The position numbers and the translations under genes are program-made. 64,000 nt of DNA, from contig NZ_OW711693.1 of NCBI RefSeq assembly GCF_940670685.1, positions 3,534,001-3,598,000 on the forward strand, written 5' to 3'. Each line of letters begins with the position of its first letter. Position 1 is the first letter of the stretch. The notes under the pieces were generated by a model. The model made no database searches, was not told the DNA's origin, and saw only the letters and a program-made list of their open reading frames with translations. Of the stretch, positions 33,075 through 62,897 are shown one piece after another. Source of the stretch: Anaeropeptidivorans aminofermentans. Its GTDB lineage: Bacteria > Bacillota > Clostridia > Lachnospirales > UBA5962.

Positions 33075-33205
33075 TATAGTAAATTTCAAATGAAACAGTA
33101 ATAAAAATCATATATTTTGAGTGGCTTAAACACAGGGATTCTATATGTTTAAGCGGTTTATGAAAAATAGATTTTTACTGCTTCCTTCTGTGAAATTCAC
33201 TATAT
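33075..33205. mobile_element. MITE-like element, family A1 (131 bp)
   Basis: Ends TATAGTAAATTTCAAATG and TGAAATTCACTATA. The interior stem GGCTTAAACAC...GTTTAAGCGG is typical of A1. It lies between nagA and the SIS gene. Confidence 0.85.
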
Positions 33206-36830: not shown

Positions 36831-36966
36831 TAAAGTAAATTTCTCATAAAGAAGGAACAAAAGCCTATTCACTATAGACCAAAAACGCGAGTTTCCCTTG
36901 GAAACAGTACAGTTTTAAACCTAAGTGAGCATACCGCTTTGTTACTTTAACTTTAAATTTACTATA
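36831..36966. mobile_element. MITE-like element, family A2 (136 bp), upstream of cas3
   Basis: Ends TAAAGTAAATTTCTC and TTTAAATTTACTATA. The A2 core reads GAGTTTCCCTTGGAAACAGT. It lies about 100 bp upstream of the cas3 start. Confidence 0.75.
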
Positions 36967-37064
36967 ACTACTGAGACAGCAAATGTATAAAGATAGGACC
37001 TCTATCCTTTAGGCATTTGCTGTTTTTTATAATCAGCCTTCTAAAATATAAAGGAGGGGATAAA

Positions 37065-39236
37065 TTGTATATTGCCCATACAAGAGAAGACGGAAAAGAA
37101 CAGTCTCTATTGAACCATTTAACAGAAACTGCAAAGCTTGCGAAGGATTTTGCGTCTTCCTTCCATTCAGGAGAATTAGCCTATCAAATGGGCCTTGCCC
37201 ACGATTTAGGAAAATACTCAAAGGAGTTTCAAGACAGGATTAAAGGCATCTCTGCCGCTCAGGTAGACCATTCCACCTCCGGCGGTATAGAATTAAACAA
37301 GATTTTTAAAAATATCATTCCTGTTTACGGGGTTTTAGGCCATCATTCAGGGCTTCCTAACGGGGGCTCCAAGGCAGTGGGGCTTAATAATCCCGATTCT
37401 ACTCTTTATGGCCGCCTGAATAAGAAAAATCTGCCGGATTATTTGGCCTATAAAAATGAAATCAATCTTTCCAATGCGCCTTGGCCTAATTTCAAACCGT
37501 CTCAGGATATGGGCTTTACCATGGCCTTTTTTATCAGAATGCTTTATTCCGCCCTTGTGGACGCTGATTATTTAGATACGGAAAGCTTCATGTCTCAAGG
37601 AGAAGTTCAGCGTTCCGGCTTTGATTCCATAGATGTTTTAAAAGAACGGTTTGATCGCTTCATTCAGCGTACTCCAAGAGAAAAAAGCCCCATCAATATG
37701 AAAAGAAATGAGATTTTAGAAGACTGCCTCTCAGCTTCGGGCAAAGAAAAAGGCCTTTTTTCCCTCACGGTTCCCACGGGCGGCGGAAAGACCATCTCTT
37801 CTCTTGGCTTTGCCCTGCATCATGCCAAAAATCATCATCTGAAACGCATTGTATACGTAATACCGTTCACTTCAATCATTGATCAAAACGCAAAGGTAAT
37901 TGCATCTATTGTCAATGAATCAGAAGGTATCAATAATGTCATTGAGCACCATTCAAACATTCTCTATCCCAATGAGGAAAATAAAAAAGACTATAAATAC
38001 CTTGCTGCGGAAAACTGGGATGCGCCGATTATCGTCACCACCAATGTTCAGTTTTTTGAATCTCTTTTTGCCCATAGAAGCGCTAAATGCAGGAAGCTTC
38101 ACAATCTGGCAGAAAGCGTTATTATCTTTGACGAAGCCCAAATGCTCCCCATTCCTTTTTTAAAGCCCTGCATACGGGCCATGGAAGAGCTTATAAGAAA
38201 TTATAATACGACGGCGGTTTTATGTACGGCTACCCAGCCGTCTCTCGGCCCTATATTCAGTAAAGATATTACCCCGACGGAAATCTGTAAGGACCCGAAA
38301 GCCCTTTACAGCTTTTTCAGAAGAGCCACTTTAAAAAATATCGGTAAAATCAGCGAAGAAGATTTAATTCAAAACCTTAAAGAGAAAAAACAGGTGCTCT
38401 GCATTGTAAACACAAGAAAGCACGCCCAAGAGCTTTATAAAAAGCTTGATAACGCCTTTCATCTTTCCACCCTCCTGTTTCCTGCCCACAGGAAGAAAGT
38501 CCTTGAAGAAATCAAGGACTGCTTAAAAAACGGCGAAGCGTGCAGAGTCATCTCCACAAGCTTAATTGAAGCCGGGGTGGATTTGGACTTTCCCTTTGTC
38601 TACAGGGAAAAAGCTGGCCTTGATTCCGTCATTCAGGCGGCAGGCCGCTGCAATCGGGAAGGAAAACATAGCCCCAATGAAAGCATTACCTATATCTTTC
38701 AATCGGAGGATTATAAAATCCCTGCCCCTATGGCAATCGCTTCCCAAGGCTTCAATGAGGCTGCAAAAAAGCACGGGGATTTAGGCAGCCCCGAAGCCAT
38801 TCAATTGTACTTTGATTCCATATACACCATTCAGGGACAAAAACTTGACCAAAAAAACATTATAAACCGCCTGAACGAAGGCTGGAAAGAAGCGGGAAGC
38901 ATCCCCTTCCGGGATATTTCAGAAGATTTTCTCATGATTGAAAATCATACTTATACAATATTTATCCCCTTTGGAGAGGAGGCGGCAGACCTTTTAAAAA
39001 GACTTCAATTTGGCGAAAGAAACAGAAGCCTTTTAAGGAAAATAAATCAGTATAGTGTGAATATTTATGAAAACCATTTAAATTTACTTCTCAATAACGG
39101 TATGGTGGAATATTTAGATCAAAAAAACTCAAAGGACGTGGGAGACGGCCTATTTATACTCACAGACCCTACCGCCTATGATGATAAATCAGGCTTAAAG
39201 CTTGCCCCCGATACGGGAAACGGTATTTTTTTATAA
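37065..39236 (+). CDS. cas3: Type I-C CRISPR helicase-nuclease Cas3
   Basis: The 723-residue protein unwinds and degrades DNA bound by Cascade. The N-terminal HD nuclease has His18 and the HD pair His46-Asp47 (GLAHDLGK). The helicase has Walker A VPTGGGKT (237-243), DEAQ (355-358), the SAT-like CTATQPS and motif VI QAAGRCNREG. The start is TTG at 37065, because AAGGAGG sits 7 nt upstream and the sequence MYIAHTREDG matches I-C Cas3 proteins; the longer frame has no ribosome site. It is the first gene of the cas operon. Confidence 0.96.
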   Translation: MYIAHTREDGKEQSLLNHLTETAKLAKDFASSFHSGELAYQMGLAHDLGKYSKEFQDRIKGISAAQVDHSTSGGIELNKIFKNIIPVYGVLGHHSGLPNGGSKAVGLNNPDSTLYGRLNKKNLPDYLAYKNEINLSNAPWPNFKPSQDMGFTMAFFIRMLYSALVDADYLDTESFMSQGEVQRSGFDSIDVLKERFDRFIQRTPREKSPINMKRNEILEDCLSASGKEKGLFSLTVPTGGGKTISSLGFALHHAKNHHLKRIVYVIPFTSIIDQNAKVIASIVNESEGINNVIEHHSNILYPNEENKKDYKYLAAENWDAPIIVTTNVQFFESLFAHRSAKCRKLHNLAESVIIFDEAQMLPIPFLKPCIRAMEELIRNYNTTAVLCTATQPSLGPIFSKDITPTEICKDPKALYSFFRRATLKNIGKISEEDLIQNLKEKKQVLCIVNTRKHAQELYKKLDNAFHLSTLLFPAHRKKVLEEIKDCLKNGEACRVISTSLIEAGVDLDFPFVYREKAGLDSVIQAAGRCNREGKHSPNESITYIFQSEDYKIPAPMAIASQGFNEAAKKHGDLGSPEAIQLYFDSIYTIQGQKLDQKNIINRLNEGWKEAGSIPFRDISEDFLMIENHTYTIFIPFGEEAADLLKRLQFGERNRSLLRKINQYSVNIYENHLNLLLNNGMVEYLDQKNSKDVGDGLFILTDPTAYDDKSGLKLAPDTGNGIFL

Positions 39237-39246
39237 GGAGGTACTT

Positions 39247-39909
39247 ATGGGATATGGATTTAAAATAGAAGTATGGGGAGATTACGCCCTGTTTTCAAGG
39301 CCCGAATTAAAAGTAGAAAGAGTTAGCTACGACGTCATCACGCCGTCTTCCGCAAGGGCAATATTAGAAGCCGTTTTGTGGAAGCCGGCAATCAAATACG
39401 TCATCGATAAAATCTACGTTTTAAACCCTATTAAATATGTAAACATCAGAAGAAACGAAGTCAATGATAAATTAAGTGCAAGAAATGTAAAAACCGTTAT
39501 GGCCTCCCCGGAAAAGGGAGAACGGCTTTTTCTGCATACAGGCTCTGCCATTGCTCAAAGGTCCTCTTTAATTTTAAAGGACGTACGGTATGTCATAGAA
39601 GCCCATTTTGAAATGACGGAAAATGCCGGCCCCGAAGACAGCCCTGAAAAATTCTATGCCATGATTTGCAGAAGGCTTAGAAACGGTCAATGCTTCCACA
39701 CCCCTTATTTCGGGTGCAGAGAGTTTCCCGTAAATTTCAGTCTCTGGGAAGAAGAAGAAATTAAAACCGCCCATAAAGGCACAAAAGACTTAGGCCTTAT
39801 GCTCTACGATATGGATTATACCGGAGAAGGAGGCCCTATGCCTTGTTTCTTCAGGGCAATCATGGAAAACGGCGAAATCAGCCTGAAAGACTGTGAGGTG
39901 TTCCGATGA
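39247..39909 (+). CDS. cas5c: Type I-C Cas5 (crRNA-processing endonuclease, Cas5d)
   Basis: The 220-residue protein begins GYGFKIEVWGDYALFSRPE, the I-C Cas5 N terminus with a RAMP fold. In I-C systems, which lack Cas6, Cas5 cuts the pre-crRNA and stays on the 5' handle. ATG at 39247 with AAGGAGG overlapping the cas3 stop. It overlaps cas8c by 4 bp. Confidence 0.95.
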   Translation: MGYGFKIEVWGDYALFSRPELKVERVSYDVITPSSARAILEAVLWKPAIKYVIDKIYVLNPIKYVNIRRNEVNDKLSARNVKTVMASPEKGERLFLHTGSAIAQRSSLILKDVRYVIEAHFEMTENAGPEDSPEKFYAMICRRLRNGQCFHTPYFGCREFPVNFSLWEEEEIKTAHKGTKDLGLMLYDMDYTGEGGPMPCFFRAIMENGEISLKDCEVFR

Positions 39910-41663
39910 TTTTAAACCGCTTGGTAGATTATTATGAGGGAAAATTAAAAAAGGGGGAAGCCCCTGAAGCCGGCTGGGAAATGGCCGATGCCCATCTTGC
40001 CATTGTGCTTTCAGATAAAGGAGAGGTTGAAAATATCCTTCCCCTTTTAAACGAAGACATCAAAAAAATAGGCGGAAAAGAAAAGACTGTTTTAGTTCCT
40101 TATGAATTTAAGCTGCCCTTAAGGATCGTCCGTTCCTCGGGAGTGGAAGCCAATTTCTTATCGGATAATGCTTCTTATATCCTCGGCTATGACGGAAAAA
40201 GCAAGCCTGAAAAGAACAAAGAAAAGTTCAAGGACGCTAAAAAACTTCATCTAAAGCTTCTGCAAGAATCAAGCAATCCTTCCGCTAAGGCCCTCTGCCT
40301 ATTTTTTAGTCAGTGGGATATTGAAAAGGCCAAAGATAATCCTTTTATTAAGGAGAACATAAAGCTCATCGAAGAAGGCAGAAATATGGTCTTTCTCCAT
40401 GACGGCAAATTCATTCATGAAAACCCGGAAATCAGGAAAATATGGGATGATTATTATAATAATAATGAAGGCTTAGAAGAAAAGGTATGTCTTGTTTCAG
40501 GCAAAAAAGAACCTATTGCGAGGCTCCATGGAAAAATCAAAGGCCTTCCCGGGGCCCAGTCCGCCGGCGCTAATTTAATCAGCCAAAACGCCGAAGCCTT
40601 TATTTCCTACAATATAAAAGAAAGCCTCCCCGGAGCCCCCGTGGGAAAATACAGTGCCTTTTCTTATGTTACAGCTATGAATATGCTGATTGCCGACAGA
40701 GACAGAAGAATTATGCTGGGGGATATCATGCTTCTTTATTGGGCGGAGGACGCAGAGGAAGCAGCTGCCGATACCTTTAGCTTCTGTTTTAACCCGCCGG
40801 AAGAAAGCGATAATCATAAGCTTACGGAAATATTCAAACGGGTAGATAATAAGCTCCCTGTTTCAGGGGTTTCTCTTGATAAGAAATTTTATATCCTGGG
40901 CATCGCCCCCAATGCGGCAAGGGTCTCTGTCTCTTTGTTTATTGAAAATGATTTCGGCAGTATTCTTTCAAATATTGCCGACCATTATAAGAGGCTTGAA
41001 ATTCAAAAGCCTTCCTTTGAAAAAAGAGAGTTCCTAACCCCTTATGCCATATTAAACGAAACCATCAATAAAAACAGCAAAAACGCAAAGCCCAACCCCC
41101 AGCATGTCGCAGGCTTAACAAGAGCCATTTTACTTGGAGAACGATACCCTTACGCCCTTTATCAAGCCATAATCCAAAGAGTAAGAGCCGAACAGGGAAG
41201 CAGAAAAATAAATTATCCAAAGGCGGCCATGATTAAGGCCTGCCTTACACAATATTTACCTAAAGAAGAAAGGGAGGTATTAAAAATGTCTTTAAACGAA
41301 GAAAGCGGTAAAAAGCCTTATATCTTAGGCAGACTTTTTGCAATTCTTGAAGAAATTCAACAAACAGCCAGCCCCGCAATTAATACTACCATCAAAGACA
41401 AATATTTTAATTCTGCATGTGCGAATCCCTATATTGCTTTTCCTCCGCTTTTGAAGCTTTCTCAGGCTCATTTGTCAAAAATAGGTGGAAATACAGAAGT
41501 TAGCTTCAATATAAAGATACAGAAGATTCTACAAAGACTAAACCCTGATGACAGCCCTTTTCCTAAAGTTCTAGATCTAAATGACCAAGGGCTTTTTATT
41601 CTCGGCTATTATTATCAAGCCCAATTTCATTATAAAAATTACCCCAAAAAGGAGGAAATTTAA
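39906..41663 (+). CDS. cas8c: Type I-C Cascade large subunit Cas8c
   Basis: The 585-residue Csd1 family protein starts ILNRLVDYYEGK and has the conserved CLVSGKKEPIARLHGKIKGL and GAQSAGANLISQNAEAF stretch. It recognises the PAM and carries the internally translated small subunit in other I-C systems; a candidate internal start with AAAGGGAGGTATTAAAAATG upstream occurs at about 41286. Its ATG overlaps the cas5 stop. Confidence 0.95.
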   Translation: MILNRLVDYYEGKLKKGEAPEAGWEMADAHLAIVLSDKGEVENILPLLNEDIKKIGGKEKTVLVPYEFKLPLRIVRSSGVEANFLSDNASYILGYDGKSKPEKNKEKFKDAKKLHLKLLQESSNPSAKALCLFFSQWDIEKAKDNPFIKENIKLIEEGRNMVFLHDGKFIHENPEIRKIWDDYYNNNEGLEEKVCLVSGKKEPIARLHGKIKGLPGAQSAGANLISQNAEAFISYNIKESLPGAPVGKYSAFSYVTAMNMLIADRDRRIMLGDIMLLYWAEDAEEAAADTFSFCFNPPEESDNHKLTEIFKRVDNKLPVSGVSLDKKFYILGIAPNAARVSVSLFIENDFGSILSNIADHYKRLEIQKPSFEKREFLTPYAILNETINKNSKNAKPNPQHVAGLTRAILLGERYPYALYQAIIQRVRAEQGSRKINYPKAAMIKACLTQYLPKEEREVLKMSLNEESGKKPYILGRLFAILEEIQQTASPAINTTIKDKYFNSACANPYIAFPPLLKLSQAHLSKIGGNTEVSFNIKIQKILQRLNPDDSPFPKVLDLNDQGLFILGYYYQAQFHYKNYPKKEEI

Positions 41664-41664
41664 T

Positions 41665-42552
41665 ATGAACCCTATTCAAAACAAATATGATTTTGTAGTT
41701 TTATTCGACGTGGAAAACGGAAACCCCAACGGCGACCCGGACGCAGGCAATATGCCGAGAGTTGATCCTGAAACGGGCCTTGGCATTGTAACAGACGTGT
41801 GCTTAAAAAGAAAAATACGCAATTATGTGGAAACCGTAAAGGAAGAAGCAGAAGGCTATAAGATTTACATAAAAGATACGGTACCATTGAACACAAGCGA
41901 TAAGTTGGCTTATGCCCATATTGAAAGTGACACGGAAAGGGCTAAAGAGGCTAAAAAAAATAAAGCTGTTTTAGACTTAATGGTACGGGATTTTATGTGT
42001 AAAAACTTCTTTGATATTCGTACCTTCGGCGCCGTCATGACAACCTTCGTAAAGGATTCCTTAAACTGCGGTCAGGTTCGAGGGCCTGTACAATTAGGCT
42101 TTGCAAGAAGTTTAGACCCTATTGTTCCCCAGGAAATAACAATCACACGAATTGCTATCACCACAGAAAAAGACGCGGCAAACAAAACCACAGAAATGGG
42201 CAAAAAACACATTGTACCTTACGGCCTTTACAGAGCAGAGGGCTTTGTATCTGCAAACCTTGCAAGAAAGGTCACAGGGTTTTCAGAAGCGGATTTAAAT
42301 CTCCTTTGGGAAGCGATTATCAATATGTTTGAGCATGACCATTCGGCCGCCAGAGGAAAAATGGCCGTTCGTGAGCTGATTGTATTTAAACATGAATCGG
42401 AAATCGGAAATGCTCCTTCCTATAAGCTTTTCGATTTAATTGACGTGAAGCTAAAGGATGAAAATAAGCCCCCGAGAGCATTTACTGACTATTCCGTAAA
42501 TATCCGTGAAGAAAACCTTCCCCAAGGCGTTCAAATTCAAAGGATGATTTAA
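41665..42552 (+). CDS. cas7c: Type I-C Cascade backbone Cas7 (Csd2)
   Basis: The 295-residue RAMP backbone subunit contains FVVLFDVENGNPNGDPDAGN, VTDVCLKRKIRNYV and IRTFGAVM, the Csd2 hallmarks. Several copies line the crRNA spacer. ATG at 41665, one base after the cas8c stop, with AAGGAGG. Confidence 0.96.
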   Translation: MNPIQNKYDFVVLFDVENGNPNGDPDAGNMPRVDPETGLGIVTDVCLKRKIRNYVETVKEEAEGYKIYIKDTVPLNTSDKLAYAHIESDTERAKEAKKNKAVLDLMVRDFMCKNFFDIRTFGAVMTTFVKDSLNCGQVRGPVQLGFARSLDPIVPQEITITRIAITTEKDAANKTTEMGKKHIVPYGLYRAEGFVSANLARKVTGFSEADLNLLWEAIINMFEHDHSAARGKMAVRELIVFKHESEIGNAPSYKLFDLIDVKLKDENKPPRAFTDYSVNIREENLPQGVQIQRMI

Positions 42553-42554
42553 TT

Positions 42555-43196
42555 TTGGAAAATTATTTAATGATTTCAGGTATACAGCATTACGCCTTTT
42601 GTAAAAGACAGTGGGCATTAATCCATATCGAAAACCAATGGGCCGAAAATGCCCTTACGGTTCAGGGTCTATTAATGCATGAAAAGGCACACAGCGACAC
42701 TACGGAAATAAAAGACGGAAAGATTATCGCAAGAGGTCTTCATATTGCTTCCCACAAGCTTAAGGTGACAGGCATTTGCGATGTCGTTGAATTTCATCAG
42801 GACGAAAATGGCATAAGCCTATTTAACTACAAAGGCTCATATACTCCCATACCCGTAGAATACAAAAAAGGACGGCCCAAAGAGCATAATGCCGATAGAC
42901 TGCAGTTATGCTCTCAGGCCATCTGTCTTGAAGAAATGCTCCTTACGGAAATACCCAAAGGCTATTTATTCTACGGGGAGCCTCACAGGAGAACGGAAGT
43001 CATTTTCAGTAGTGCGCTTCGCTCAGAGGTAAACGCAACCTTTGAGGAAATGCGCGCCTTATATAAAAGGGGCCACGTCCCGAAGGTCAAGAAAACGCCC
43101 AAATGCACCGCCTGCTCTTTGAAAGATACTTGCCTGCCGGATTTAGATAATAGGCCTTCCGCAAGCAGTTATTTAAAGCACGAACTTTTTCGTTGA
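42555..43196 (+). CDS. cas4: Cas4 nuclease for spacer acquisition
   Basis: The 213-residue RecB-like nuclease has four Fe-S cysteines: Cys16 (FCKRQW), Cys184, Cys187 and Cys193 (KCTACSLKDTC), and nuclease motifs around VEYKKGRPK. Cas4 trims prespacers and checks the PAM end with Cas1-Cas2. The likely start is TTG at 42555 behind AAAGGA, 2 bp after cas7; ATG at 42570 is an alternative. It is the last gene before a 968-bp gap. Confidence 0.94.
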   Translation: MENYLMISGIQHYAFCKRQWALIHIENQWAENALTVQGLLMHEKAHSDTTEIKDGKIIARGLHIASHKLKVTGICDVVEFHQDENGISLFNYKGSYTPIPVEYKKGRPKEHNADRLQLCSQAICLEEMLLTEIPKGYLFYGEPHRRTEVIFSSALRSEVNATFEEMRALYKRGHVPKVKKTPKCTACSLKDTCLPDLDNRPSASSYLKHELFR

Positions 43197-43457
43197 TTAT
43201 ATTTTTGCACTGGGCATAGGGTTTTGCTGCAAAGACAATTATTTCACTGACATTTGAATAAGTAAAAGTTTGGTCTATGGGGATTATAGTACGTTTAATA
43301 TAGCAAGCTCAATTTTCATATCCTTTCCTGATTCTATTTTAGGATATTTTTCAAGATGAAATGTATGTATTTTTATCCAAAGAAACAAAGACTGTTTTCG
43401 GCAGTTTATACAAGACTAAAAACCTTGAAATACGGCACCTTTTCCTTAAAGAATATT

Positions 43458-43593
43458 TATAGTAAGCTTGAAATTAAACAGTAATAAAACCGTATATTCA
43501 TATAGATTCAAGACTGTACTGCTTCCTGCCCAACTCCGTGCTTTTAGTCTTCAATAATCAAGTTTTTTACTACTTCATAAGAAATTTATTGTA
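43458..43593. mobile_element. MITE-like element, family A2, between cas4 and cas1
   Basis: TATAGTAAGCTTGAAATT to AAGAAATTTATTGTA; the right end is slightly eroded. Interior GTACTGCTTCC and CTCCGTGCTTTTAG is a diverged A2 core. Confidence 0.75.
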
Positions 43594-43650
43594 TCTTTCA
43601 AATTTAGGCAAACAAATTAAAAAGTTATTTAAAGAGCGTGCTTTTTATCA

Positions 43651-43686
43651 GGGCATATTTGCAGAAATAAAAATATGCCCTCTTTT
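43651..43686 (+). terminator. Hairpin terminator in the cas4-cas1 gap
   Basis: GGGCATATTT pairs with AAATATGCCC, followed by TCTTTT. It would separate the interference operon (cas3 to cas4) from cas1-cas2. Confidence 0.7.
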
Positions 43687-43919
43687 CAAAATGAAAAGAC
43701 ACTAAACTTAGAGCCCGGCGCTTAGCTTTACAGATACCCTGGGAATTTAGGAAATATAGGTTTGAATTTCTAGAATAAATCAGAGCTTCGTTTTAAGGCA
43801 AAAACTTTTAAAACAAGACCTCCATCATACCCACAATTGAATTCAAATTAGGCGGAAGTAATTTTTATTTTGTCGGGCTCTTTGTCCTTTAGGTGAAAGC
43901 TTCTAAGCCCCACGGTTTA

Positions 43920-43951
43920 GGTCTGTTAGGCAAATACCTAAGGCGCAGACC
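43920..43951. repeat. Two-part hairpin upstream of cas1
   Basis: GGTCTG and CAGACC enclose TTAGG CAAATA CCTAA, giving a 6-bp plus 5-bp stem. Together with the rest of 43687-44164 (no gene seen) this forms the leader of cas1-cas2. A similar TTAGG/CCTAA pair is at 45600-45618. Confidence 0.5.
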
Positions 43952-44164
43952 CATTTTCCTCAGCCGTATACTGTGGCTTCATATGGATTTTCAGTATAGC
44001 CGGATTTATATTTTATCTGAATTTTTATTATAAAAAGTTTAAAAATTTTTCATAGAATTTAACCTTTTAAAACTTAATTTACTATATGCTTTATATTAAA
44101 ATCTTATTTTCACTCTATAAAAATACCCTTCAACCATTTTCAAATGCTCCTAAGGAGACTTTTC

Positions 44165-45196
44165 ATGAGAAAAATGATGAATACCCTTTATATCACTTCC
44201 CCTGATTCTTATTTGGGTCTTGACGGGGAAACAATTATTGTAAAACGGGAGGATTTAGACGATATCCGTATTCCCCTTCATAATATCGAATCCGTTTTAG
44301 CCTTCGGATATACCGGCGCAAGCCCTGCCCTTATGGGGGCTTTGGCGGAAAGAAATATTTCCCTTTGCTTCCTTACGCAAAACGGCAGATTTCTATCCCG
44401 AATCATCGGTGAAAGCCACGGAAACATTCTTCTAAGAAAAGAGCAATACCGAATATCCGACGATGAGCCTCGTTCCCTTGAAATCGCAAAGCAAATTATT
44501 TCCACAAAAATCCATAACAGCAGATGGATTATAGAAAGGGCAATCAGAGACTATCCCCTGCGCCTTGATATAGAAAAGCTTAAAAACAGATCTCTATACT
44601 TGCAGGATATGATTTCCCAGGCTCAATCTTCCAAGAGCTTGGAAGAACTTAGAGGCATTGAAGGAAAATCCGCCAGCAGCTATTTCGGCGTATTCGATGA
44701 TTTAATCTTACAGCAGAAGGATCACTTCTTCTTTAAGAGCAGAAGCAGAAGGCCCCCTCTTGATAATATGAATGCAATGCTTTCCTTTGGCTACACCCTT
44801 CTCGCAAATGATACGGCTGCTGCTTTAGAGTCTGTAGGCTTGGATGCTTATGCAGGCTTTTTACACCGTGACAGACCGGGAAGGATTTCCCTCGCTCTGG
44901 ATATTATGGAAGAATTCAGAGGGCCTTTGGTAGAGCGAATGGTAATAAGCATGATTAATAAAAAAGTAGTTTCAGGCAAGGGCTTTATAAAAGAGGAAAG
45001 CGGCGGTATAATCATGACAAAGGATACCAGAGACATATTTTTAAAAACCTGGCAGGAGCGCAAAAAAGAAATCATCACCCACCCCTTTTTAAAAGAAAAA
45101 ATGGAATGGGGATTAGTCCCATATGCTCAGGCCCTGTTACTGGCCCGTTTTATCCGAAAAGATTTAGACGCCTATCCGGTTTTCCTATGGAAGTGA
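44165..45196 (+). CDS. cas1: CRISPR integrase Cas1 (type I-C)
   Basis: The 343-residue protein starts RKMMNTLYITSPDSYLGLDG, typical of I-C Cas1, with the active-site region HRDRPGRISLALDIMEEFRG. With Cas2 it inserts new spacers at the leader end. ATG at 44165 with AAGGAG 8 nt upstream. It is separated from cas4 by a gap with a terminator and a MITE, so it probably has its own promoter. Confidence 0.96.
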   Translation: MRKMMNTLYITSPDSYLGLDGETIIVKREDLDDIRIPLHNIESVLAFGYTGASPALMGALAERNISLCFLTQNGRFLSRIIGESHGNILLRKEQYRISDDEPRSLEIAKQIISTKIHNSRWIIERAIRDYPLRLDIEKLKNRSLYLQDMISQAQSSKSLEELRGIEGKSASSYFGVFDDLILQQKDHFFFKSRSRRPPLDNMNAMLSFGYTLLANDTAAALESVGLDAYAGFLHRDRPGRISLALDIMEEFRGPLVERMVISMINKKVVSGKGFIKEESGGIIMTKDTRDIFLKTWQERKKEIITHPFLKEKMEWGLVPYAQALLLARFIRKDLDAYPVFLWK

Positions 45197-45205
45197 GGTT
45201 TTCTT

Positions 45206-45496
45206 ATGATGGTTTTAATAACTTACGACGTAAATACCCAAACGGAAAGCGGCCGTAAAAGGCTCCGGCAAGTAGCAAAACAATGTGAAAACTATGGTAT
45301 AAGAGTTCAAAACTCCGTATTTGAATGTGTCTTGGACAACGCCCAGTGGCTTCTTGTAAAAAATACCCTTGAAAAGATTATTGATAAAAATAAAGACAGC
45401 CTACGATATTATTATCTGGGTAATAAATATCAAACTAAAATAGAGCATATAGGAGCAAAAGCGGCTATCCAAGTAGAAGATACATTGATACTCTAA
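45206..45496 (+). CDS. cas2: CRISPR integration subunit Cas2
   Basis: The 96-residue protein reads MMVLITYDVNTQTESGRKRL with the conserved Asp in the first beta strand. It bridges two Cas1 dimers in the integrase. It lies 9 bp after cas1, and the array leader follows. Confidence 0.96.
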   Translation: MMVLITYDVNTQTESGRKRLRQVAKQCENYGIRVQNSVFECVLDNAQWLLVKNTLEKIIDKNKDSLRYYYLGNKYQTKIEHIGAKAAIQVEDTLIL

Positions 45497-45841
45497 GATA
45501 TTTTTAAAATAATCAAGCCGGCAAAAACATTAAACATTTTTTAGAAAAAAGCATGCCTTAAGTATTTTAAATATATCCTATGGATTAAAATTTCAAAACT
45601 TAGGTAACCCTTGCCTAAAGCAATCAAGCAACTGAAGGTATTCACACATAAAATTGCAGCGTACATTTAAAGTGCGAACCTCCATCAGTATCAAAAACCC
45701 CAGAGCTTTCGCACCAGATTTTTATATAAAAATATAATCCTCTGTCTATAAATCTTTATTTTCACAAGTATTTTTTAACATGTTTTTATAATTTGTATAA
45801 AATAGAATTAGAAATAAGTAGTATTTTTGTGTAGTTTTGCT
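45497..45841 (+). promoter_or_regulatory. CRISPR leader
   Basis: A 345-bp AT-rich non-coding stretch between cas2 and the first repeat. It should carry the array promoter and the integration signals. A TATAAT at 45787-45792 is a possible -10, with TTCACA at 45761 rather far upstream. The inverted repeat TTAGG / CCTAA is at 45600-45618. Confidence 0.75.
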
Positions 45842-48800
45842 GTCGTCTCTCACAGAGAGACGTGGATTGAAATAGATAAAAAAACAGAAATAACAAGGGG
45901 GATAATGTCGTCTCTCACAGAGAGACGTGGATTGAAATACACCCCCTCTTATTTAGCGTTTAAACGCCCCTGTCGTCTCTCACAGAGAGACGTGGATTGA
46001 AATTTGCTTCCATTTGCATCACTGGAAATTTAATCTTGTCGTCTCTCACAGAGAGACGTGGATTGAAATTCATTTTTCACACCCCCTCTTATTTGCTCTT
46101 TAGTCGTCTCTCACAGAGAGACGTGGATTGAAATCGCCTTCTGGTCGGCGTTCATTTTGGCCAGCTTTTGTCGTCTCTCACAGAGAGACGTGGATTGAAA
46201 TACCAGAACAATACAGGATTGTTGAAGTTGAGGTAGTCGTCTCTCACAGAGAGACGTGGATTGAAATATTTTTGCGACAGCTTACAAAAGGTGCATGAGC
46301 GTCGTCTCTCACAGAGAGACGTGGATTGAAATGTCGTTATGACAGGCATCGCAGAGACTTATCAAGTCGTCTCTCACAGAGAGACGTGGATTGAAATAAT
46401 TCAGGTTACTACAACAGCGGAAACTGCAACAGGTCGTCTCTCACAGAGAGACGTGGATTGAAATCTTAAGGTTTAAATATGTGAACCATAGGGCTGCAGT
46501 CGTCTCTCACAGAGAGACGTGGATTGAAATCTTTGCCACAAAGATATTTAGACACGCACCCCAGTCGTCTCTCACAGAGAGACGTGGATTGAAATACGGT
46601 GGTTAGGAGGTAACGAAAATAGAATTAGAGTCGTCTCTCACAGAGAGACGTGGATTGAAATAGGACGTGTGGGATATGAGAGGTATTATCCAAAATGTCG
46701 TCTCTCACAGAGAGACGTGGATTGAAATTTGATACATATAATTTTATTGTTGAAATCTTAAGTCGTCTCTCACAGAGAGACGTGGATTGAAATCGGCATC
46801 TCCGACAGCCTTTTTACCCCACATTTTGTCGTCTCTCACAGAGAGACGTGGATTGAAATAATGCCGTCACGTTGTAATATTGCATTCCGCAGAGTCGTCT
46901 CTCACAGAGAGACGTGGATTGAAATAGGCGTATCGGATTTTTGTAAAATCAAATCCGGCGTCGTCTCTCACAGAGAGACGTGGATTGAAATTCATTTTTC
47001 ACACCCCCTCTTATTTGCTCTTTAGTCGTCTCTCACAGAGAGACGTGGATTGAAATACGTTGGTTGAGGAGATGCATCATCTGCCGAGGTCGTCTCTCAC
47101 AGAGAGACGTGGATTGAAATTTAAAAACCTTGGGCAAAGCCAGGACAAGGCTAATGTCGTCTCTCACAGAGAGACGTGGATTGAAATAAGCTCAACCGAT
47201 ACAACAAAGCCCTTTGTCCTTGTCGTCTCTCACAGAGAGACGTGGATTGAAATAAACGGCAAAAGGCTTGTTGTTACCTCCTTAGACGTCGTCTCTCACA
47301 GAGAGACGTGGATTGAAATTTTTGCTAAGGCCGTGTTTTCCTCCCATGCAGCAGTCGTCTCTCACAGAGAGACGTGGATTGAAATTCCTTTTTACATTAA
47401 AAAAGCACCCAAAAGGGCGGTCGTCTCTCACAGAGAGACGTGGATTGAAATATGAGCCGCTGAGCCCCTGAGAAGTGTATCTCTTGTCGTCTCTCACAGA
47501 GAGACGTGGATTGAAATCGCAAGCGAACTAAGAAAAGTTGCTGACGACTTAGTCGTCTCTCACAGAGAGACGTGGATTGAAATCCTTATAGCTATATAAT
47601 CAGCGGCCCGGAAAAAGGTCGTCTCTCACAGAGAGACGTGGATTGAAATTCCTAATTGAGGGCTGGGGGAAAGGTTCAGTGATGTCGTCTCTCACAGAGA
47701 GACGTGGATTGAAATTTTAGTAAGATTGGCAGCCTCTCTTAGAGTTTTTGTCGTCTCTCACAGAGAGACGTGGATTGAAATAGGATTTAGTCACGGATGT
47801 AATTCTTCCCACTATCGTCGTCTCTCACAGAGAGACGTGGATTGAAATCGCACGAGAGGGGGTTAAAAGATGAACGTGCAATCGTCGTCTCTCACAGAGA
47901 GACGTGGATTGAAATCTTAATATTGTTTTTATCGCTTATAAAATAAAAGGTCGTCTCTCACAGAGAGACGTGGATTGAAATCTAAGGCCTGTAAGCTTCC
48001 AATAAATAAAAATTGCGTCGTCTCTCACAGAGAGACGTGGATTGAAATCCAAAATGATAAAATTTAGCGAAAGGAGGGCCTTTGTCGTCTCTCACAGAGA
48101 GACGTGGATTGAAATACCTTTAAACCCCTTAATCTTTTCCGTAGCTTTGTCGTCTCTCACAGAGAGACGTGGATTGAAATTTTTGTTAACGCTCTTTTTG
48201 AAGACACAAAAGGTCGTCTCTCACAGAGAGACGTGGATTGAAATATTTAAGCCGGCTCTTGCTGTTTTTACAGCCTTAGGTCGTCTCTCACAGAGAGACG
48301 TGGATTGAAATATGGCGAGCTGTTTAATGCCCTTATATCCCAAGGTCGTCTCTCACAGAGAGACGTGGATTGAAATTTAACATCCTCGGACCCACCCTTA
48401 TGCGTGCATCGTCGTCTCTCACAGAGAGACGTGGATTGAAATGCGGATATGCGCTATCGTCGGGGGAAATTTTTCCGTCGTCTCTCACAGAGAGACGTGG
48501 ATTGAAATAAAATGATACTTTTTAAGTCATTATTTATATTATGTCGTCTCTCACAGAGAGACGTGGATTGAAATTATGCCGTTTAAAGTGTTGGTGTCTG
48601 TGGCGTAAGTCGTCTCTCACAGAGAGACGTGGATTGAAATCAGTGTCATAGCCCTTTTATAGTGATTACAACTCGTCGTCTCTCACAGAGAGACGTGGAT
48701 TGAAATTTTATGCGTCAAATCCAATTGTCCACAAAGGGAGGTCGTCTCTCACAGAGAGACGTGGATTGAAATTGTTTTAGCACCTTGACCGCCGCCGTTA

Positions 48801-51800
48801 GCTGATGTCGTCTCTCACAGAGAGACGTGGATTGAAATTTTTGCCACCTCGCGATACAGCCATTCAAATTCCGTCGTCTCTCACAGAGAGACGTGGATTG
48901 AAATCTTTTTGTCGTGCAGGGCTGGGGTATGTATGTAGTCGTCTCTCACAGAGAGACGTGGATTGAAATCTGCCATTCGGGCAATCACAATATGCTAAAA
49001 ACTCGTCGTCTCTCACAGAGAGACGTGGATTGAAATAATCCGATAGGATAAATGACAAGCAGCAGTTCCGTCGTCTCTCACAGAGAGACGTGGATTGAAA
49101 TATGCTTTTAAAGATGGCGATGCTAAATACATTACGTCGTCTCTCACAGAGAGACGTGGATTGAAATTTGCTTTGACGGCACCCTGAACCCTGAATATCC
49201 AGTCGTCTCTCACAGAGAGACGTGGATTGAAATTATGGGCTTATAAGCTTCAAATATCTTTAAATCCGTCGTCTCTCACAGAGAGACGTGGATTGAAATA
49301 TCACCGTGAGTAAATTCGTCCTCGCCTTCGAGGGTCGTCTCTCACAGAGAGACGTGGATTGAAATTAAAAGCTCTTCGGCAAACTGGCCGAATGTTATCG
49401 TCGTCTCTCACAGAGAGACGTGGATTGAAATATGGACAAAGCTATGGCAGAAGTCGGCCCCGAAAGTCGTCTCTCACAGAGAGACGTGGATTGAAATATT
49501 TTTATCTCTCCTTTTTATTTGCTTTCCTTTAGTCGTCTCTCACAGAGAGACGTGGATTGAAATTTTGTCGTAAAGAGTATTGTAATCAATATCTTTGTCG
49601 TCTCTCACAGAGAGACGTGGATTGAAATTATTTTTCCGGATTTCAAGGTTACAAGGTAGTAGTCGTCTCTCACAGAGAGACGTGGATTGAAATAATATGT
49701 CTTTTGGAGAGTTTTATCACTTTGCCGTCGTCTCTCACAGAGAGACGTGGATTGAAATTTAGGCAGAGCAATCCCCTCGGCGGGGTTTTTGATGTCGTCT
49801 CTCACAGAGAGACGTGGATTGAAATGCAATGCTACGGCTGGGGATATTGAAAATTATAAGTCGTCTCTCACAGAGAGACGTGGATTGAAATACGTGTAAA
49901 GAGGCTTTGAGTTCTTTTCCGCATGACGTCGTCTCTCACAGAGAGACGTGGATTGAAATAGGAGCTTTATTTCTTTTTCCGGGCCGCTGATTGTCGTCTC
50001 TCACAGAGAGACGTGGATTGAAATACACCTGCGCCCAAGGATTGTTAACTCCTGCCCTAGTCGTCTCTCACAGAGAGACGTGGATTGAAATCCGTTAGTG
50101 ATTTGGCGGTATCTTATATAACTGGGTCGTCTCTCACAGAGAGACGTGGATTGAAATTGCAATAAAAAAGCACCCGGAGGGGGTGCTGAATAAGTCGTCT
50201 CTCACAGAGAGACGTGGATTGAAATAGGCGTTCCTTTGTACGTAACCCCCGCCGCTGTGGTCGTCTCTCACAGAGAGACGTGGATTGAAATTTTTTAGTG
50301 TGCCAAATCCGTATTGACCCTTTTTGTCGTCTCTCACAGAGAGACGTGGATTGAAATACACTAAATACAGGATTAAGAGAAGGAGAACTGCTGTCGTCTC
50401 TCACAGAGAGACGTGGATTGAAATATAGCCATACTCATTCCATGTCTTGATTTGCGCTGTCGTCTCTCACAGAGAGACGTGGATTGAAATAGCCCGGAGA
50501 GAATGAGCTGATATTTACTTCTGAGTCGTCTCTCACAGAGAGACGTGGATTGAAATCTGAAGGTTTTACTCCTAAATACCGTTCTGATGGCGTCGTCTCT
50601 CACAGAGAGACGTGGATTGAAATTAAAGATAATTGTGCAACTATTACAATCGCAAGAGTCGTCTCTCACAGAGAGACGTGGATTGAAATAAGGGAAGCCG
50701 CTATTCAGGAATTGGCCGATAGAAGTCGTCTCTCACAGAGAGACGTGGATTGAAATAGGAGCAAAGGGAGGGTTAATATGACCCCTTTAGTCGTCTCTCA
50801 CAGAGAGACGTGGATTGAAATTCAATACGCAAAAGAAACTTGAGAAGAAAGACAGGTCGTCTCTCACAGAGAGACGTGGATTGAAATTCCTTTATTTTTT
50901 TTATATAAAAAAATCTACCCGTCGTCTCTCACAGAGAGACGTGGATTGAAATCGTATTCGTGCCGGTTGATTGTTTCCACGATTCGGTCGTCTCTCACAG
51001 AGAGACGTGGATTGAAATAGTCTCTTTTGTATCAAATATCTTGGCCTTATACGTCGTCTCTCACAGAGAGACGTGGATTGAAATATGGACAAAGCTATGG
51101 CAGAAGTCGGCCCCGAAGTCGTCTCTCACAGAGAGACGTGGATTGAAATCGTATTCGTGCCGGTTGATTGTTTCCACGATTCGGGTCGTCTCTCACAGAG
51201 AGACGTGGATTGAAATTAGTTGTCCGCAAAGAGTATTTTCAGGGTCCTTGGTCGTCTCTCACAGAGAGACGTGGATTGAAATTCCGGCTTATACGGGCAC
51301 TCTTGTTGAGACGCGGGCGTCGTCTCTCACAGAGAGACGTGGATTGAAATTAAATATTTCTCTATATCTCTCTGCGCTTTTGAGTCGTCTCTCACAGAGA
51401 GACGTGGATTGAAATCATGTGCTTATTGTTGACGAGTTTACGCCTGTATGTCGTCTCTCACAGAGAGACGTGGATTGAAATCCTTGCTTTTGCCATGTTC
51501 TTCGTTTGAGAGATGTCGTCTCTCACAGAGAGACGTGGATTGAAATGCTAAATACTCCCGGTAAAGCCAAAACGGGGTGAGGTCGTCTCTCACAGAGAGA
51601 CGTGGATTGAAATGCATTAGTTTAAGTTGTCTAGGAGGTGGCAGCTAGTCGTCTCTCACAGAGAGACGTGGATTGAAATAATGTTTACAGACCTTAAATC
51701 AGCTGGCATTACGTCGTCTCTCACAGAGAGACGTGGATTGAAATATATCAATCACGCTCCTTATATTTAATCCCGTAGTCGTCTCTCACAGAGAGACGTG

Positions 51801-54800
51801 GATTGAAATCCTGGCAAGCCTGCTCATGCTTATGCTGTTAATGTCGTCTCTCACAGAGAGACGTGGATTGAAATAAAGGTATCCATTGTGCACCCTCCAC
51901 AAATTACGTCGTCTCTCACAGAGAGACGTGGATTGAAATCCTGGCAAGCCTGCTCATGCTTATGCTGTTAATGTCGTCTCTCACAGAGAGACGTGGATTG
52001 AAATGATAATTTCTAAATAAAAGGACAAGCCTAAAGAGTCGTCTCTCACAGAGAGACGTGGATTGAAATAGCTCCTCATATTTATAGAGCAGGGCATAAT
52101 ACATGTCGTCTCTCACAGAGAGACGTGGATTGAAATTCGGTTCTATAGCTTGATAAGTACCACCTTCGCAGTCGTCTCTCACAGAGAGACGTGGATTGAA
52201 ATCACGTAGCCGTTGCCGCCATCACCGCCCCAATACCGTCGTCTCTCACAGAGAGACGTGGATTGAAATAAAAGAATTTCCTAAATAACAAAGACAATTT
52301 TTTGTCGTCTCTCACAGAGAGACGTGGATTGAAATCGGCGGAGCCGGAGCAGCCGCAATCTATAAAAAGGTCGTCTCTCACAGAGAGACGTGGATTGAAA
52401 TTTTTGAGTTATGATTTTAAACACGAAGGCAGAAAGTCGTCTCTCACAGAGAGACGTGGATTGAAATTACTTTAAATTTCATAATTTACCCCTCCATTTC
52501 CATCGTCTCTCACAGAGAGACGTGGATTGAAATAGGCTTTCAGCGGCGAACCTAAGGACGGCTTGAGTCGTCTCTCACAGAGAGACGTGGATTGAAATTA
52601 TAAAAGTGTGGTAAAATCTCCCTAGAGGGGAGTCGTCTCTCACAGAGAGACGTGGATTGAAATCGTCAATCTCTCACACTCCTTTAACCTTTACCTCGTC
52701 GTCTCTCACAGAGAGACGTGGATTGAAATCTCAGCGCAGACGGCTATAAAGGCGCTATTTGTCGTCGTCTCTCACAGAGAGACGTGGATTGAAATTGTAT
52801 TTAAGTAGGTACATTGATTGTCTGAATGTGTCGTCTCTCACAGAGAGACGTGGATTGAAATTCTTTTTTGTATTCCGTTAATTATTTCTGAAACTGTCGT
52901 CTCTCACAGAGAGACGTGGATTGAAATCTTAAGGTTTAAATACTTTGGCCCTACAAACACAGTCGTCTCTCACAGAGAGACGTGGATTGAAATAAGAATA
53001 GCCGTTCTTATGGCTTCCGCTGCAAAAGTCGTCTCTCACAGAGAGACGTGGATTGAAATAAGTTTTTTTATTTTACGTTGAAGGTCATTTGCTTGTCGTC
53101 TCTCACAGAGAGACGTGGATTGAAATAGACCGAAGGAAGACGAAACCTATTATTACATGTCGTCTCTCACAGAGAGACGTGGATTGAAATTCCGAGAGGT
53201 AGAATACGGCTTTTTTCGTTATGTCGTCTCTCACAGAGAGACGTGGATTGAAATTGTTGAAGTTCAAAACTTGTATCAGAGTAATCTGAAAGAGTCGTCT
53301 CTCACAGAGAGACGTGGATTGAAATTGTTGTCTGCATATCTGCAACATGCCTTACTAACGTCGTCTCTCACAGAGAGACGTGGATTGAAATTTTACGTGT
53401 CAAATCTAATTGACCGCAAAGGGAGCGTCGTCTCTCACAGAGAGACGTGGATTGAAATTTAATTTCCTCGAATTTGGCTAGAATTCTGTCTTTGTCGTCT
53501 CTCACAGAGAGACGTGGATTGAAATTTTGCCAATCTCAAATTGATACCCTCTGCATTGCGTCGTCTCTCACAGAGAGACGTGGATTGAAATCAAAAAGCT
53601 TTGCGCCCTCAACGGATAAGCGGGGTCGTCTCTCACAGAGAGACGTGGATTGAAATCTTGAGGTACTTAAGCAAAGTATCTTCATTTTTGTCGTCTCTCA
53701 CAGAGAGACGTGGATTGAAATAATGATTTTAGTCGCTGCAATGTACGCCACGGGGGGTCGTCTCTCACAGAGAGACGTGGATTGAAATAGAATTAAGCCT
53801 TAATAAAATCTTTATTGAGTTTTGTCGTCTCTCACAGAGAGACGTGGATTGAAATAATCATTTTACATACATGGTGGTATTCTTGCATCGTCGTCTCTCA
53901 CAGAGAGACGTGGATTGAAATCAGCGTGATATTAAGTGGGCGATAAAAAACAAATGTCGTCTCTCACAGAGAGACGTGGATTGAAATCCTAAGGGATTCC
54001 AACCTGCTCTTTATACAGCCGTCGTCTCTCACAGAGAGACGTGGATTGAAATACTGTCACCCGTCAGACGATACAAAAACCTGCTGTCGTCTCTCACAGA
54101 GAGACGTGGATTGAAATACACAGAAGCTTTATTATTGCAGGAACTAAGAAGTCGTCTCTCACAGAGAGACGTGGATTGAAATTTAGCAACCATTGAGTTT
54201 TAGAGGTATCAATTACGTCGTCTCTCACAGAGAGACGTGGATTGAAATAAGGGGCAAACACTAGCAATATTGAATAGCCCTTGTCGTCTCTCACAGAGAG
54301 ACGTGGATTGAAATTTTTGGTTGATGGGCTTTCTGATGGCAAAGATTTAGTCGTCTCTCACAGAGAGACGTGGATTGAAATTATTTTGGTAGTCTGTAGC
54401 GTTATCGTTATAAGGTCGTCTCTCACAGAGAGACGTGGATTGAAATTAAAACTCAACAACTTATATATGATTATAACGCCGTCGTCTCTCACAGAGAGAC
54501 GTGGATTGAAATCCCTACTGAGAAAGTTATCGAACAAATAACTTCGTCGTCTCTCACAGAGAGACGTGGATTGAAATTTAGCAAAAAAATAAGCTTGATA
54601 CTTTTCTGTTGTCGTCTCTCACAGAGAGACGTGGATTGAAATTTAAAATTTTTGTTAATAAATTATTGACGTGTTTGTCGTCTCTCACAGAGAGACGTGG
54701 ATTGAAATCTAAGTAGTAGCTTTAGAAATATTAAATTAATAAGTCGTCTCTCACAGAGAGACGTGGATTGAAATAAATATCCCAGCCATTAAACTTGATT

Positions 54801-56818
54801 GTATGGAGTCGTCTCTCACAGAGAGACGTGGATTGAAATGCCTTTACCGGCCGGCGAATGTCGCTGTAATGAGTCGTCTCTCACAGAGAGACGTGGATTG
54901 AAATTTGCAGCTCTTAATCTCTTGGCAAATATAGCTTTGTCGTCTCTCACAGAGAGACGTGGATTGAAATTGCGTCTTTTACCTGTAATACAAAATTAGC
55001 TCTAGTCGTCTCTCACAGAGAGACGTGGATTGAAATTAATGCTCTGGAGAGTATAAGTTCCCTAGCTGTAGTCGTCTCTCACAGAGAGACGTGGATTGAA
55101 ATTAAAAGTAGGGGGTCTGCTGTACTTATATCTGTGTCGTCTCTCACAGAGAGACGTGGATTGAAATTGCTTTCAGATTATATTGAAGATTGCCAAACTC
55201 GGGTCGTCTCTCACAGAGAGACGTGGATTGAAATTCTGTACCTGCGAAATTTACAGTTTTTCCCGAAAGTCGTCTCTCACAGAGAGACGTGGATTGAAAT
55301 CGTTTGGAACTTATCTTTTAACACAGTTAGACGAGTCGTCTCTCACAGAGAGACGTGGATTGAAATTGAATGTAGAAATGATAAACCAAGATAGTGTACG
55401 TCGTCTCTCACAGAGAGACGTGGATTGAAATTTCCGAAGGAAAACTCTCAGGACATGCGCTGCGTCGTCTCTCACAGAGAGACGTGGATTGAAATCCACT
55501 CCTTTAGAGACGATATCCGAACAGCTAAAGTCGTCTCTCACAGAGAGACGTGGATTGAAATAACGTCTCTTGCTATTTTTACAAGCTTATTCTGTGTCGT
55601 CTCTCACAGAGAGACGTGGATTGAAATTGTTTACGTTAAAACGAATCTGTCTTGGTTTGATGTCGTCTCTCACAGAGAGACGTGGATTGAAATCTTAGCT
55701 TTTATGATGGCTAACTTCTTCAGATCGTGTCGTCTCTCACAGAGAGACGTGGATTGAAATTAACTCTTCTTCCGGGGAAACCTCTGATAATCCTTGTCGT
55801 CTCTCACAGAGAGACGTGGATTGAAATATTCTGTGTCCACCGATTATTTATTAGGTATTACGTCGTCTCTCACAGAGAGACGTGGATTGAAATTTTTTAG
55901 TGGAAATCTCTTTATTATGAATAAGTCGTCGTCTCTCACAGAGAGACGTGGATTGAAATCAATGCCTTTTCTGCGGCTTCGCGGGTGTATATCGTCGTCT
56001 CTCACAGAGAGACGTGGATTGAAATCAAGGGAAATTATACCATAAAAAGAAAGGACCGTAGTCGTCTCTCACAGAGAGACGTGGATTGAAATATCTTAAA
56101 TAATTGACTTATCCCTGAAAATATTCGTCGTCTCTCACAGAGAGACGTGGATTGAAATTAAATCTTCTAGCGATGCCTCTGTCGAGATGATTGTCGTCTC
56201 TCACAGAGAGACGTGGATTGAAATTATGCTATCCGTTGATTGCTGATAGCTTTTTTCACCGTCGTCTCTCACAGAGAGACGTGGATTGAAATTAAATCTT
56301 CTAGCGATGCCTCTGTCGAGATGATTGTCGTCTCTCACAGAGAGACGTGGATTGAAATCTTATCATAGGCAAGTGTGGCTTCATTAGCCGGGGTCGTCTC
56401 TCACAGAGAGACGTGGATTGAAATTCTCGGGAGATGATGCATTTCTTCAACTAGCGTTGTCGTCTCTCACAGAGAGACGTGGATTGAAATATATCTATGA
56501 TAATTGTGCGCCTATAGCCTTTTTGGTCGTCTCTCACAGAGAGACGTGGATTGAAATATTTATCTTAATTTTATATTGTTCTACATTTTTGTCGTCTCTC
56601 ACAGAGAGACGTGGATTGAAATCTTTTCATCACCGTGAGTAACTGTATTTATACTCGTCGTCTCTCACAGAGAGACGTGGATTGAAATCCTACCGGCAGG
56701 GGAAATTGCCGGACCTATGTGGTCGTCTCTCGCAGAGAGACGTGGATTGAAATTCACCAGACCTTATGAGTTGTGCCGGATTTCTGGTCATCTCTCACAG
56801 AAATACGTGGATTGAAAT
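45842..56818 (+). CRISPR. Type I-C CRISPR array, 167 repeats and 166 spacers
   Basis: The 32-nt repeat starts GTCGTCTCTCAC and ends GTGGATTGAAAT; CGTCTCTC and GAGAGACG form an 8-bp stem around ACA. Counted by eye, there are 167 repeats with spacers of 32-39 nt, mostly 33-35. Nearly all repeats are identical. Exceptions are A for G at the first base of the repeat at 52502, one change at 56722 (CTCGCAGAG) and three changes at 56787, all consistent with the leader lying at the cas2 side. Several spacers are duplicated. Long reading frames here are repeat artefacts. Confidence 0.97.
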
Positions 56819-56842: not shown

Positions 56843-58060
56843 ATGTTACGCTGTGTCGTCTCTCGCAGGGAGAATAATATGAAGAAAATTACGGTATTTA
56901 TAGTAATAATTTTGTTATTGGCAGCCTGCAGAAGCAAAGACGCAGAGTTTGATGTTTCAAAAACCATGAAAGGAAAATGGGTGTCTTATATCAGCTCTAT
57001 TAACGGAGATTTAATATTAAATATTTATAATGACGGTGAAAACAAAAAGATGCTTATGTCAAGTGAAAAGTTCGAGCTTCAAGGCATTGTTCCCTTTTCC
57101 TGTGAACTGGAGGAGGACCATTTAAAATTCACTATGAATTCCGATGAAAGCCATCGCATTGCCATAGATCTTAAGATGACCGAAACAGGGGATTTAAAAG
57201 GTAATTTTACTCAGTACGGAAATACCAAAGATATATTTTTTAAAAAGATTTCGGATATCCCTGATGAATATGAAGCGCCAGATCCATTTAACAATATGAC
57301 AGCAGAAGAAAGAATTCATTTATTAAAGGAGTATAGCGAATATGAAAAAGGCGGTGAAAGGCCTCTATTTATAGTAAAAACCGGCGAAAAATTAAAATAT
57401 GAAGATATTATCAATGAATATGGCCTTGATGAAAAAACCAAAGGTCTTGAGGATACAGCTCTTATGATAGCGCTTTTAAACTGGGTATGCGATAATTTTA
57501 ATCATGACGGCTTTTCTGGCCTTCCGGAAAATTCGGATATCTCTGCCTTAATTGAATTCCATCAAAAAAACGACGGAATAAACTGCCGGGGGCTTTCATT
57601 AATTTTAGCTGAAATCCTCAGAGCCTACGGTATAGATGCAAGGCATGTTACCTGCATGCCTGAGGAAGAGCCTTTTATAGACTGTCATGTGGTAGTTCAC
57701 GCTTATTCAGCCGAACTTCACCAATGGGTAATGCTTGACCCCAGCAACAGGCTTATCCTTATGGACGAAGAGGAAAATTATATTGATCTTTGGTCCCTAC
57801 GGAACTCTTACATAGACGGAAGCAAAATTACGGCACTTAACTTAACAGGAAAAGATATTCAGGATTCAGAACTAAAATATTATTTGGAATATATGGCGAA
57901 AAATACATTTCGTTTTGAAATGGATTCTGTATTCGATTACGCTTCCGATGGGATGCAGAATAAAACAATATATAATCTCATACCAAAAGGATACAAAACT
58001 ATAAGAAGGGGAGCAACTGCCATAACAGACCCTGAATATTTCTGGGCTCTTCCGGAGTAA
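56843..58060 (+). CDS. Lipoprotein with transglutaminase-like domain
   Basis: The precursor has a signal peptide (KKITVFIVIILLLAAC) with a lipobox ending at Cys. An N-terminal beta-rich part (about 30-140) precedes a transglutaminase-like cysteine-peptidase fold: Cys in NDGINCRGLSLILAEILRAY, His in DCHVVVHAYSAE and Asp in HQWVMLDPSNR. Such proteins act on proteins or peptidoglycan at the outer face of the membrane. Two starts are possible: ATG at 56843 (AAGGAG 6 nt upstream), reading through a CRISPR repeat remnant, or ATG at 56879 with GGGAGA supplied by that remnant. The second gives a normal signal peptide. Confidence 0.85.
   Translation: MLRCVVSRRENNMKKITVFIVIILLLAACRSKDAEFDVSKTMKGKWVSYISSINGDLILNIYNDGENKKMLMSSEKFELQGIVPFSCELEEDHLKFTMNSDESHRIAIDLKMTETGDLKGNFTQYGNTKDIFFKKISDIPDEYEAPDPFNNMTAEERIHLLKEYSEYEKGGERPLFIVKTGEKLKYEDIINEYGLDEKTKGLEDTALMIALLNWVCDNFNHDGFSGLPENSDISALIEFHQKNDGINCRGLSLILAEILRAYGIDARHVTCMPEEEPFIDCHVVVHAYSAELHQWVMLDPSNRLILMDEEENYIDLWSLRNSYIDGSKITALNLTGKDIQDSELKYYLEYMAKNTFRFEMDSVFDYASDGMQNKTIYNLIPKGYKTIRRGATAITDPEYFWALPE
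56855..56873 (+). repeat. Truncated CRISPR repeat remnant
   Basis: GTCGTCTCTCGCAGGGAGA matches the first 19 nt of the repeat with two changes, then similarity ends. It lies 36 nt after the last recognisable repeat and within the 5' region of the next gene. Confidence 0.75.
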
Positions 58061-58221: not shown

Positions 58222-58351
58222 TATAGTAAATTTCACATAAGGATGTAATAAAAATCTATTTTTCATAAACGGCTTAAACATATGGAACCCCTATATTTAA
58301 GCCATTCAAAACATACGATTTTTATTACTGTTTAATTTGAAATTGACTATA
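58222..58351. mobile_element. MITE-like element, family A1 (130 bp)
   Basis: Ends TATAGTAAATTTCACAT and TTTGAAATTGACTATA; A1 stem ATAAACGGCTTAAACAT...ATTTAAGCCATTC. Confidence 0.85.
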
Positions 58352-62759: not shown

Positions 62760-62897
62760 TATAGTAAATTTAAAATTAAATAGTAAGAAAGCCGTATATT
62801 TATGCAGACTCAAGAATATACCGTTTCCGAAGGAAACCTGTGTTTTTGAATCTATAGTGAATAGGTTTTGTTGCTTCTTTATGGGAAATTTACTATA
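62760..62897. mobile_element. MITE-like element, family A2 (138 bp)
   Basis: TATAGTAAATTTAAAATT to GGAAATTTACTATA, with ATACCGTTTCCGAAGGAAAC. Very similar to the copy at 16675. Confidence 0.85.

Follow-up and report, generated by a model that had tools for sequence, protein, structure and literature searches.

The lengths of type I-C CRISPR arrays have been surveyed before: 164 of them hold a median of 30 and a mean of 43 spacers, with a third quartile of 56, a maximum of 318 and a geometric parameter of 0.023 for the fitted lengths, and the maximum for class 1 is 481 spacers (PMC5575924). One metagenomic array has even 1,131 spacers (PMC8026048). For the I-C system of Xanthomonas oryzae, TTC has been reported as the PAM (PMC8406640). 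Moreover, a solitary repeat carried by a mobile element can act as an RNA anti-CRISPR (Racr), also for type I-C (PMC10651486).

We analyzed a window of 64,000 nucleotides from Anaeropeptidivorans aminofermentans (contig NZ_OW711693.1, positions 3,534,001 to 3,598,000), whose genome consists of one contig of 3.757 Mb. Coordinates below are those of the window unless called genome positions. The window contains an array of 166 spacers. By the geometric fit of the survey (PMC5575924), at least 166 spacers are expected in about 2% of I-C arrays, and the surveyed lengths agree with the first-pass annotation, which had stated that most arrays hold far fewer. We also compared the array with the loci around the 80 closest relatives of its Cas1 in one-per-species genomes. 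Complete arrays beside these relatives hold 32 repeats at the median and at most 94. The array described here is the longest in this set, and the runner-up is a Robinsoniella locus with at least 143 repeats.

A complete type I-C locus

The cas genes lie upstream of the array on the plus strand. They begin with cas3, which encodes the HD nuclease-helicase of type I-C (37017..39236; PADLOC Cas3c, E 1.9e-224), followed by cas5c, whose product is the crRNA-processing subunit in I-C (39202..39909; Cas5c, E 3e-67), cas8c/csd1, which encodes the large subunit and is the I-C signature (39906..41663; Cas8c, E 6e-143), and cas7c/csd2 (41581..42552; Cas7c, E 7e-109). As the profile match opens only at residue 35, cas7c probably starts further downstream than 41581. 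The adaptation genes are cas4c (42555..43196; Cas4c, E 3e-88; Pfam PF01930), cas1c (44144..45196; Cas1c, E 4e-150) and cas2c (45206..45496; Cas2c, E 2e-44). All seven products score best with a c-type PADLOC model, in a nearly full-length match, which upholds the earlier assignment to subtype I-C. Because the operon cas3-cas5c-cas8c-cas7c-cas4c-cas1c-cas2c is complete, the locus is a complete type I-C CRISPR-Cas system. By the best PADLOC models the signature gene cas8c occurs together with cas5c, cas7c and cas3, c-type cas4, cas1 and cas2 adjoin the array, and no cas6 was seen among the ORFs between cas3 and cas2, as expected of an I-C operon. Furthermore, the repeat forms a stable hairpin (8 bp, -11.3 kcal/mol in a computed fold) and has the conserved 3' end GTGGATTGAAAT, and the PAM, as detailed below, is 5'-TTC.

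Adaptation modules are usually compact, but here cas4c and cas1c stand 947 bp apart (43197..44143, plus strand). No ORF of more than 55 amino acids was found in this gap, and a copy of a MITE-like dispersed repeat lies inside it (about 43450-43610). The repeat is about 130-140 bp long and has the inverted ends TATAGTAAATTT...AAATTTACTATA. Further copies are found in the window at 4073-4211, 16675-16813, 33075-33204, 36831-36966, 58222-58351 and 62760-62897. It is very abundant: its left end has 322 matches in the genome, and a reversed control has none.

A long array of nearly identical repeats

Direct parsing of the window places the array at 45842..56818 on the plus strand, where the 32-nt repeat GTCGTCTCTCACAGAGAGACGTGGATTGAAAT occurs 167 times and encloses 166 spacers. 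This is the very count proposed in the first-pass annotation, and not one well below 160. When up to three mismatches are allowed, the repeat occurs 168 times in forward and once in reverse orientation in the whole genome, and only two of these copies lie outside the array. A chance origin of the array is excluded. Most spacers are 33-35 nt long, with a range of 32-36 nt and a single exception of 39 nt; 163 of the 166 are distinct in sequence, and their G+C content (39.9%) is close to that of the window (40.1%).

Identical repeats make up 164 of the 167, so that the earlier description of nearly all repeats as identical stands. Two of the deviating copies are at the cas2-distal end (repeat 166 with one mismatch, repeat 167 with three). 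It had been claimed that decay is confined to the end far from cas2; this is true of these two repeats, but overlooks repeat 102 (52502), which carries one mismatch in the middle of the array. The polarity of the array, with intact repeats on the cas2 side and decay distally, was described correctly. The interval between cas2c and the first repeat (45497..45841, plus strand) is, from its position beside the intact repeats and opposite the decayed end, the presumed leader. After a last spacer unit of 36 nt, a 19-nt remnant of a truncated, mutated 168th repeat follows (56855..56873, plus strand). This remnant runs into the start of a lipoprotein gene (56855-56890), which encodes a transglutaminase-like domain and takes its GGGAG ribosome-binding-like motif from the repeat.

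Spacers match two phages

Two phages with matching sites were found among viral contigs. Phage A (IMG/VR 3300021326_000029) was reached via a tail protein of a tail-gene module in the host genome that is described below. It contains protospacers for spacers 41 (one mismatch), 74 (two) and 147 (two), each preceded by TTC, and a diverged site for spacer 71 (eight mismatches), also with TTC before it. Phage B, represented by two contigs with an identical capsid (3300021326_000037 and 3300021318_000029), was reached by a codon-degenerate search with spacer 55/80. Its protospacers for spacers 31 (no mismatch), 32 (one), 55/80 (one) and 8 (four) all have TTC, as does a diverged site for spacer 158 (seven mismatches). 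Spacer 26 matches phage B perfectly (L166:8511, in one of its two contigs), but its site is preceded by TAA, and three relatives have CAA there; the site may be an escape variant or stem from off-PAM capture. Thus, TTC is found beside eight of the nine spacers that match phages A and B with at most four mismatches, spacer 26 being the exception and spacers 55 and 80 being counted apart although they share one site. The reversed-spacer control gave no match at up to six mismatches in 404 kb. Independent PAM evidence is found inside the array: spacer 2 begins within spacer 4, and spacer 53 within spacer 164, in both cases right after TTC.

At least eight spacers match two phages, and the array records real infections, in line with the first-pass annotation, which had called it a long record of the mobile DNA met by the lineage. 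Contact with the lineages of phages A and B has been long-lasting, with recurrent capture along most of the array. Moreover, contigs of both phages are present in metagenomes 3300021318 and 3300021326, which suggests that they share a habitat with the host.

In total, about 10 of the 166 spacers are assigned. Blastn searches of phage and plasmid records with words of 11 gave only weak or chance-level matches and nothing convincing; the match of spacer 5 to a gene of Lactobacillus-group phages (93.5% over 31 nt, E 0.04) was not counted. A shallow search of 392 genomes of the order, in which two candidates were scored per genome, returned repeat-only matches and, for spacer 24, one that resembles a terminator. 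Viral contigs were also scanned for exact or codon-degenerate matches to spacers 44/115, 27/63, 19/161 and 2/4, and none was found.

Spacers 41 and 71 also weakly match the tail-gene module of the host, 11-14 kb beyond the array. The module (genome positions about 3601500-3611700) encodes a tape measure protein, Dit and minor and major tail proteins, and no head genes were seen upstream of it. Its Dit is 78% identical to that of phage A, and the module, which is related to phage A, is either a decayed prophage or a tail-like bacteriocin. The module sites homologous to spacers 41 and 71 have TTT and TTA instead of TTC. PAM loss under self-immunity was considered and rejected: only 29 of 71 aligned TTC (41%) are conserved between the module and phage A, at which level two losses are unremarkable, and the changes at the two sites are therefore no evidence of selection.

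Duplicated spacers and the origin of array length

Five pairs of spacers are identical (4 and 18, 91 and 93, 157 and 159) or differ by one base (55 and 80, 78 and 81); the distances within them are, in array order, 14, 25, 3, 2 and 2 units. Such pairs could arise if the length were an assembly artefact, in which a shorter array was duplicated by wrong joining at repeats. A mis-join would, however, repeat blocks of spacers, and among the 166 no two neighbouring spacers occur together a second time: the duplicates are always single. The assembly duplication that the first-pass annotation had named as a ground for refutation is not seen. The number of distinct spacers and the assembly of the genome into one contig also speak against it. 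We thus regard a duplication of the array during assembly as unlikely on strong, if not final, grounds, and a length made by wrong joining as highly improbable. How the duplicates arose is a separate matter. In pairs 55/80 and 78/81 the PAM-side start is common and the one-base difference is at the far end, for which the simplest reading is that one phage site was captured twice, independently, by a ruler that varies slightly. An indel of a single base within a short run (GAA/GAAA, CG/CGG) at the PAM-distal end is a possible alternative to ruler variation. Recombination between repeats, in place of re-capture, is a less likely but still plausible source of the duplicates. It would suit pairs 91/93 and 157/159, which are identical and two units apart, since such an A-B-A pattern could come from unequal exchange plus one deletion. 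It accounts less well for pairs 55/80 and 78/81, in which the difference is exactly one base and lies at the PAM-distal end, where ruler variation falls, and both spacers 55 and 80 are matched by phage sequence. Spacers 44 and 115 derive from one site and have diverged, and the same is true of spacers 19 and 161. Read as codons by eye, the members of each pair differ by mostly synonymous changes (SLCGQLDLT-H/R-K; TLVEEMHHLPR), and the lineage has therefore met related phages more than once.

The first-pass annotation had also argued that uniform repeats imply either recent growth or homogenisation of the array, and this is not supported in that form. At face value, the 164 identical repeats would favor a recent phase of rapid growth or array-wide gene conversion. 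But 26 I-C arrays of at least 30 repeats, located near related Cas1 genes, have a median of 97% identical repeats, and in several of them the value is 100%. The 98% of the present array is ordinary, and since it matches this usual median, neither a recent burst nor homogenisation is needed. Acquisition at the leader end copies the leader-proximal repeat, and repeats are uniform by default because one repeat is copied in this way. Furthermore, matches to phages A and B with at most four mismatches begin at spacer 8 and continue up to spacer 147, which argues for recurrent contact and not a single episode; such a spread is better explained by accumulation over a long time than by a single recent burst. 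Unusual uniformity caused by rapid growth or gene conversion is therefore unlikely.

Related repeats outside the array

A decayed, inverted mini-array with four recognisable repeats and a partial one lies on the minus strand at genome positions 3598675-3598906, just outside the window and some 8 kb past the main array. Elsewhere, a lone I-C repeat is found at genome positions 2014144-2014175. It is identical to the array repeat at 29 of 32 positions, keeps the hairpin and precedes a serine recombinase (Resolvase/Recombinase) gene by 144 bp. This recombinase gene and a shortened UDP-GlcNAc carboxyvinyltransferase (murA-type) gene overlap at their ends. A tail-protein fragment is also found beside the lone repeat, and a possible degenerate second repeat end was noticed by eye 35 nt upstream of it.

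A lone I-C repeat with a hairpin near a recombinase gene resembles the solitary repeat units described as Racr (PMC10651486). Unlike these, it has no promoter-like excess and is not conserved, and no acr gene was identified. Racr repeats are located just downstream of a promoter, and a consensus scan upstream of the lone repeat found no more promoter-like sites than in shuffled sequences. We also considered whether the repeat is conserved together with its recombinase, and rejected this, since it was not found beside 29 homologous recombinases. It is thus improbable that the lone repeat serves a mobile element as an RNA anti-CRISPR or as a crRNA-like regulator that blunts the immunity of this array. 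It is no less likely to be the remnant of a decayed array, and we prefer this reading because there is neither a promoter signal nor conservation beside the 29 recombinases.

Discussion

Taken together, the sequence data very probably describe a single complete and likely active type I-C locus, whose long array would be the result of net accumulation. Full-length cas genes, the polarity of the array, TTC at protospacers, the origin of many spacers from two phages and near-duplicate spacers with a common PAM-side end are seen directly. From what is known of I-C systems, Cas4, Cas1 and Cas2 would capture TTC-adjacent fragments and add them to the array at its cas2/leader end. Since the first repeat would be copied each time, repeats would remain identical, with decay limited to the old end. 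Cas5c would cut the transcript at the repeat hairpin, a complex of Cas5c, Cas7 and Cas8c would hold the guides, and Cas3 would degrade TTC-flanked targets. The length of the array would then reflect net accumulation over long contact with the same phage lineages. The perfect match of spacer 26 at a site without TTC, the distance between cas4c and cas1c, which is unlike a compact operon, and the small share of assigned spacers count against this reading.

The array is a well-preserved, polarised record of infection that ties a clostridial-type bacterium to two phages from the same two metagenomes. It can be used to assign hosts to viral contigs and to infer PAM and ruler. It does not challenge the present understanding of CRISPR.

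In gene set and order, in the position of the array downstream of cas2, in a 32-nt repeat ending in GTGGATTGAAAT, in spacers of 33-35 nt and in the TTC PAM, the locus is the same as type I-C systems of Bacillota and related bacteria. It differs from type I-C in general by an array that exceeds the published median of 30 spacers (PMC5575924), and by the gap with a MITE-like repeat between cas4 and cas1. Compared to other very long CRISPR arrays, in contrast, it is surpassed by the published extremes of 318 spacers for I-C, 481 for class 1 and 1,131 in a metagenome. The array is thus unusually long, yet not exceptional, and familiar in kind.
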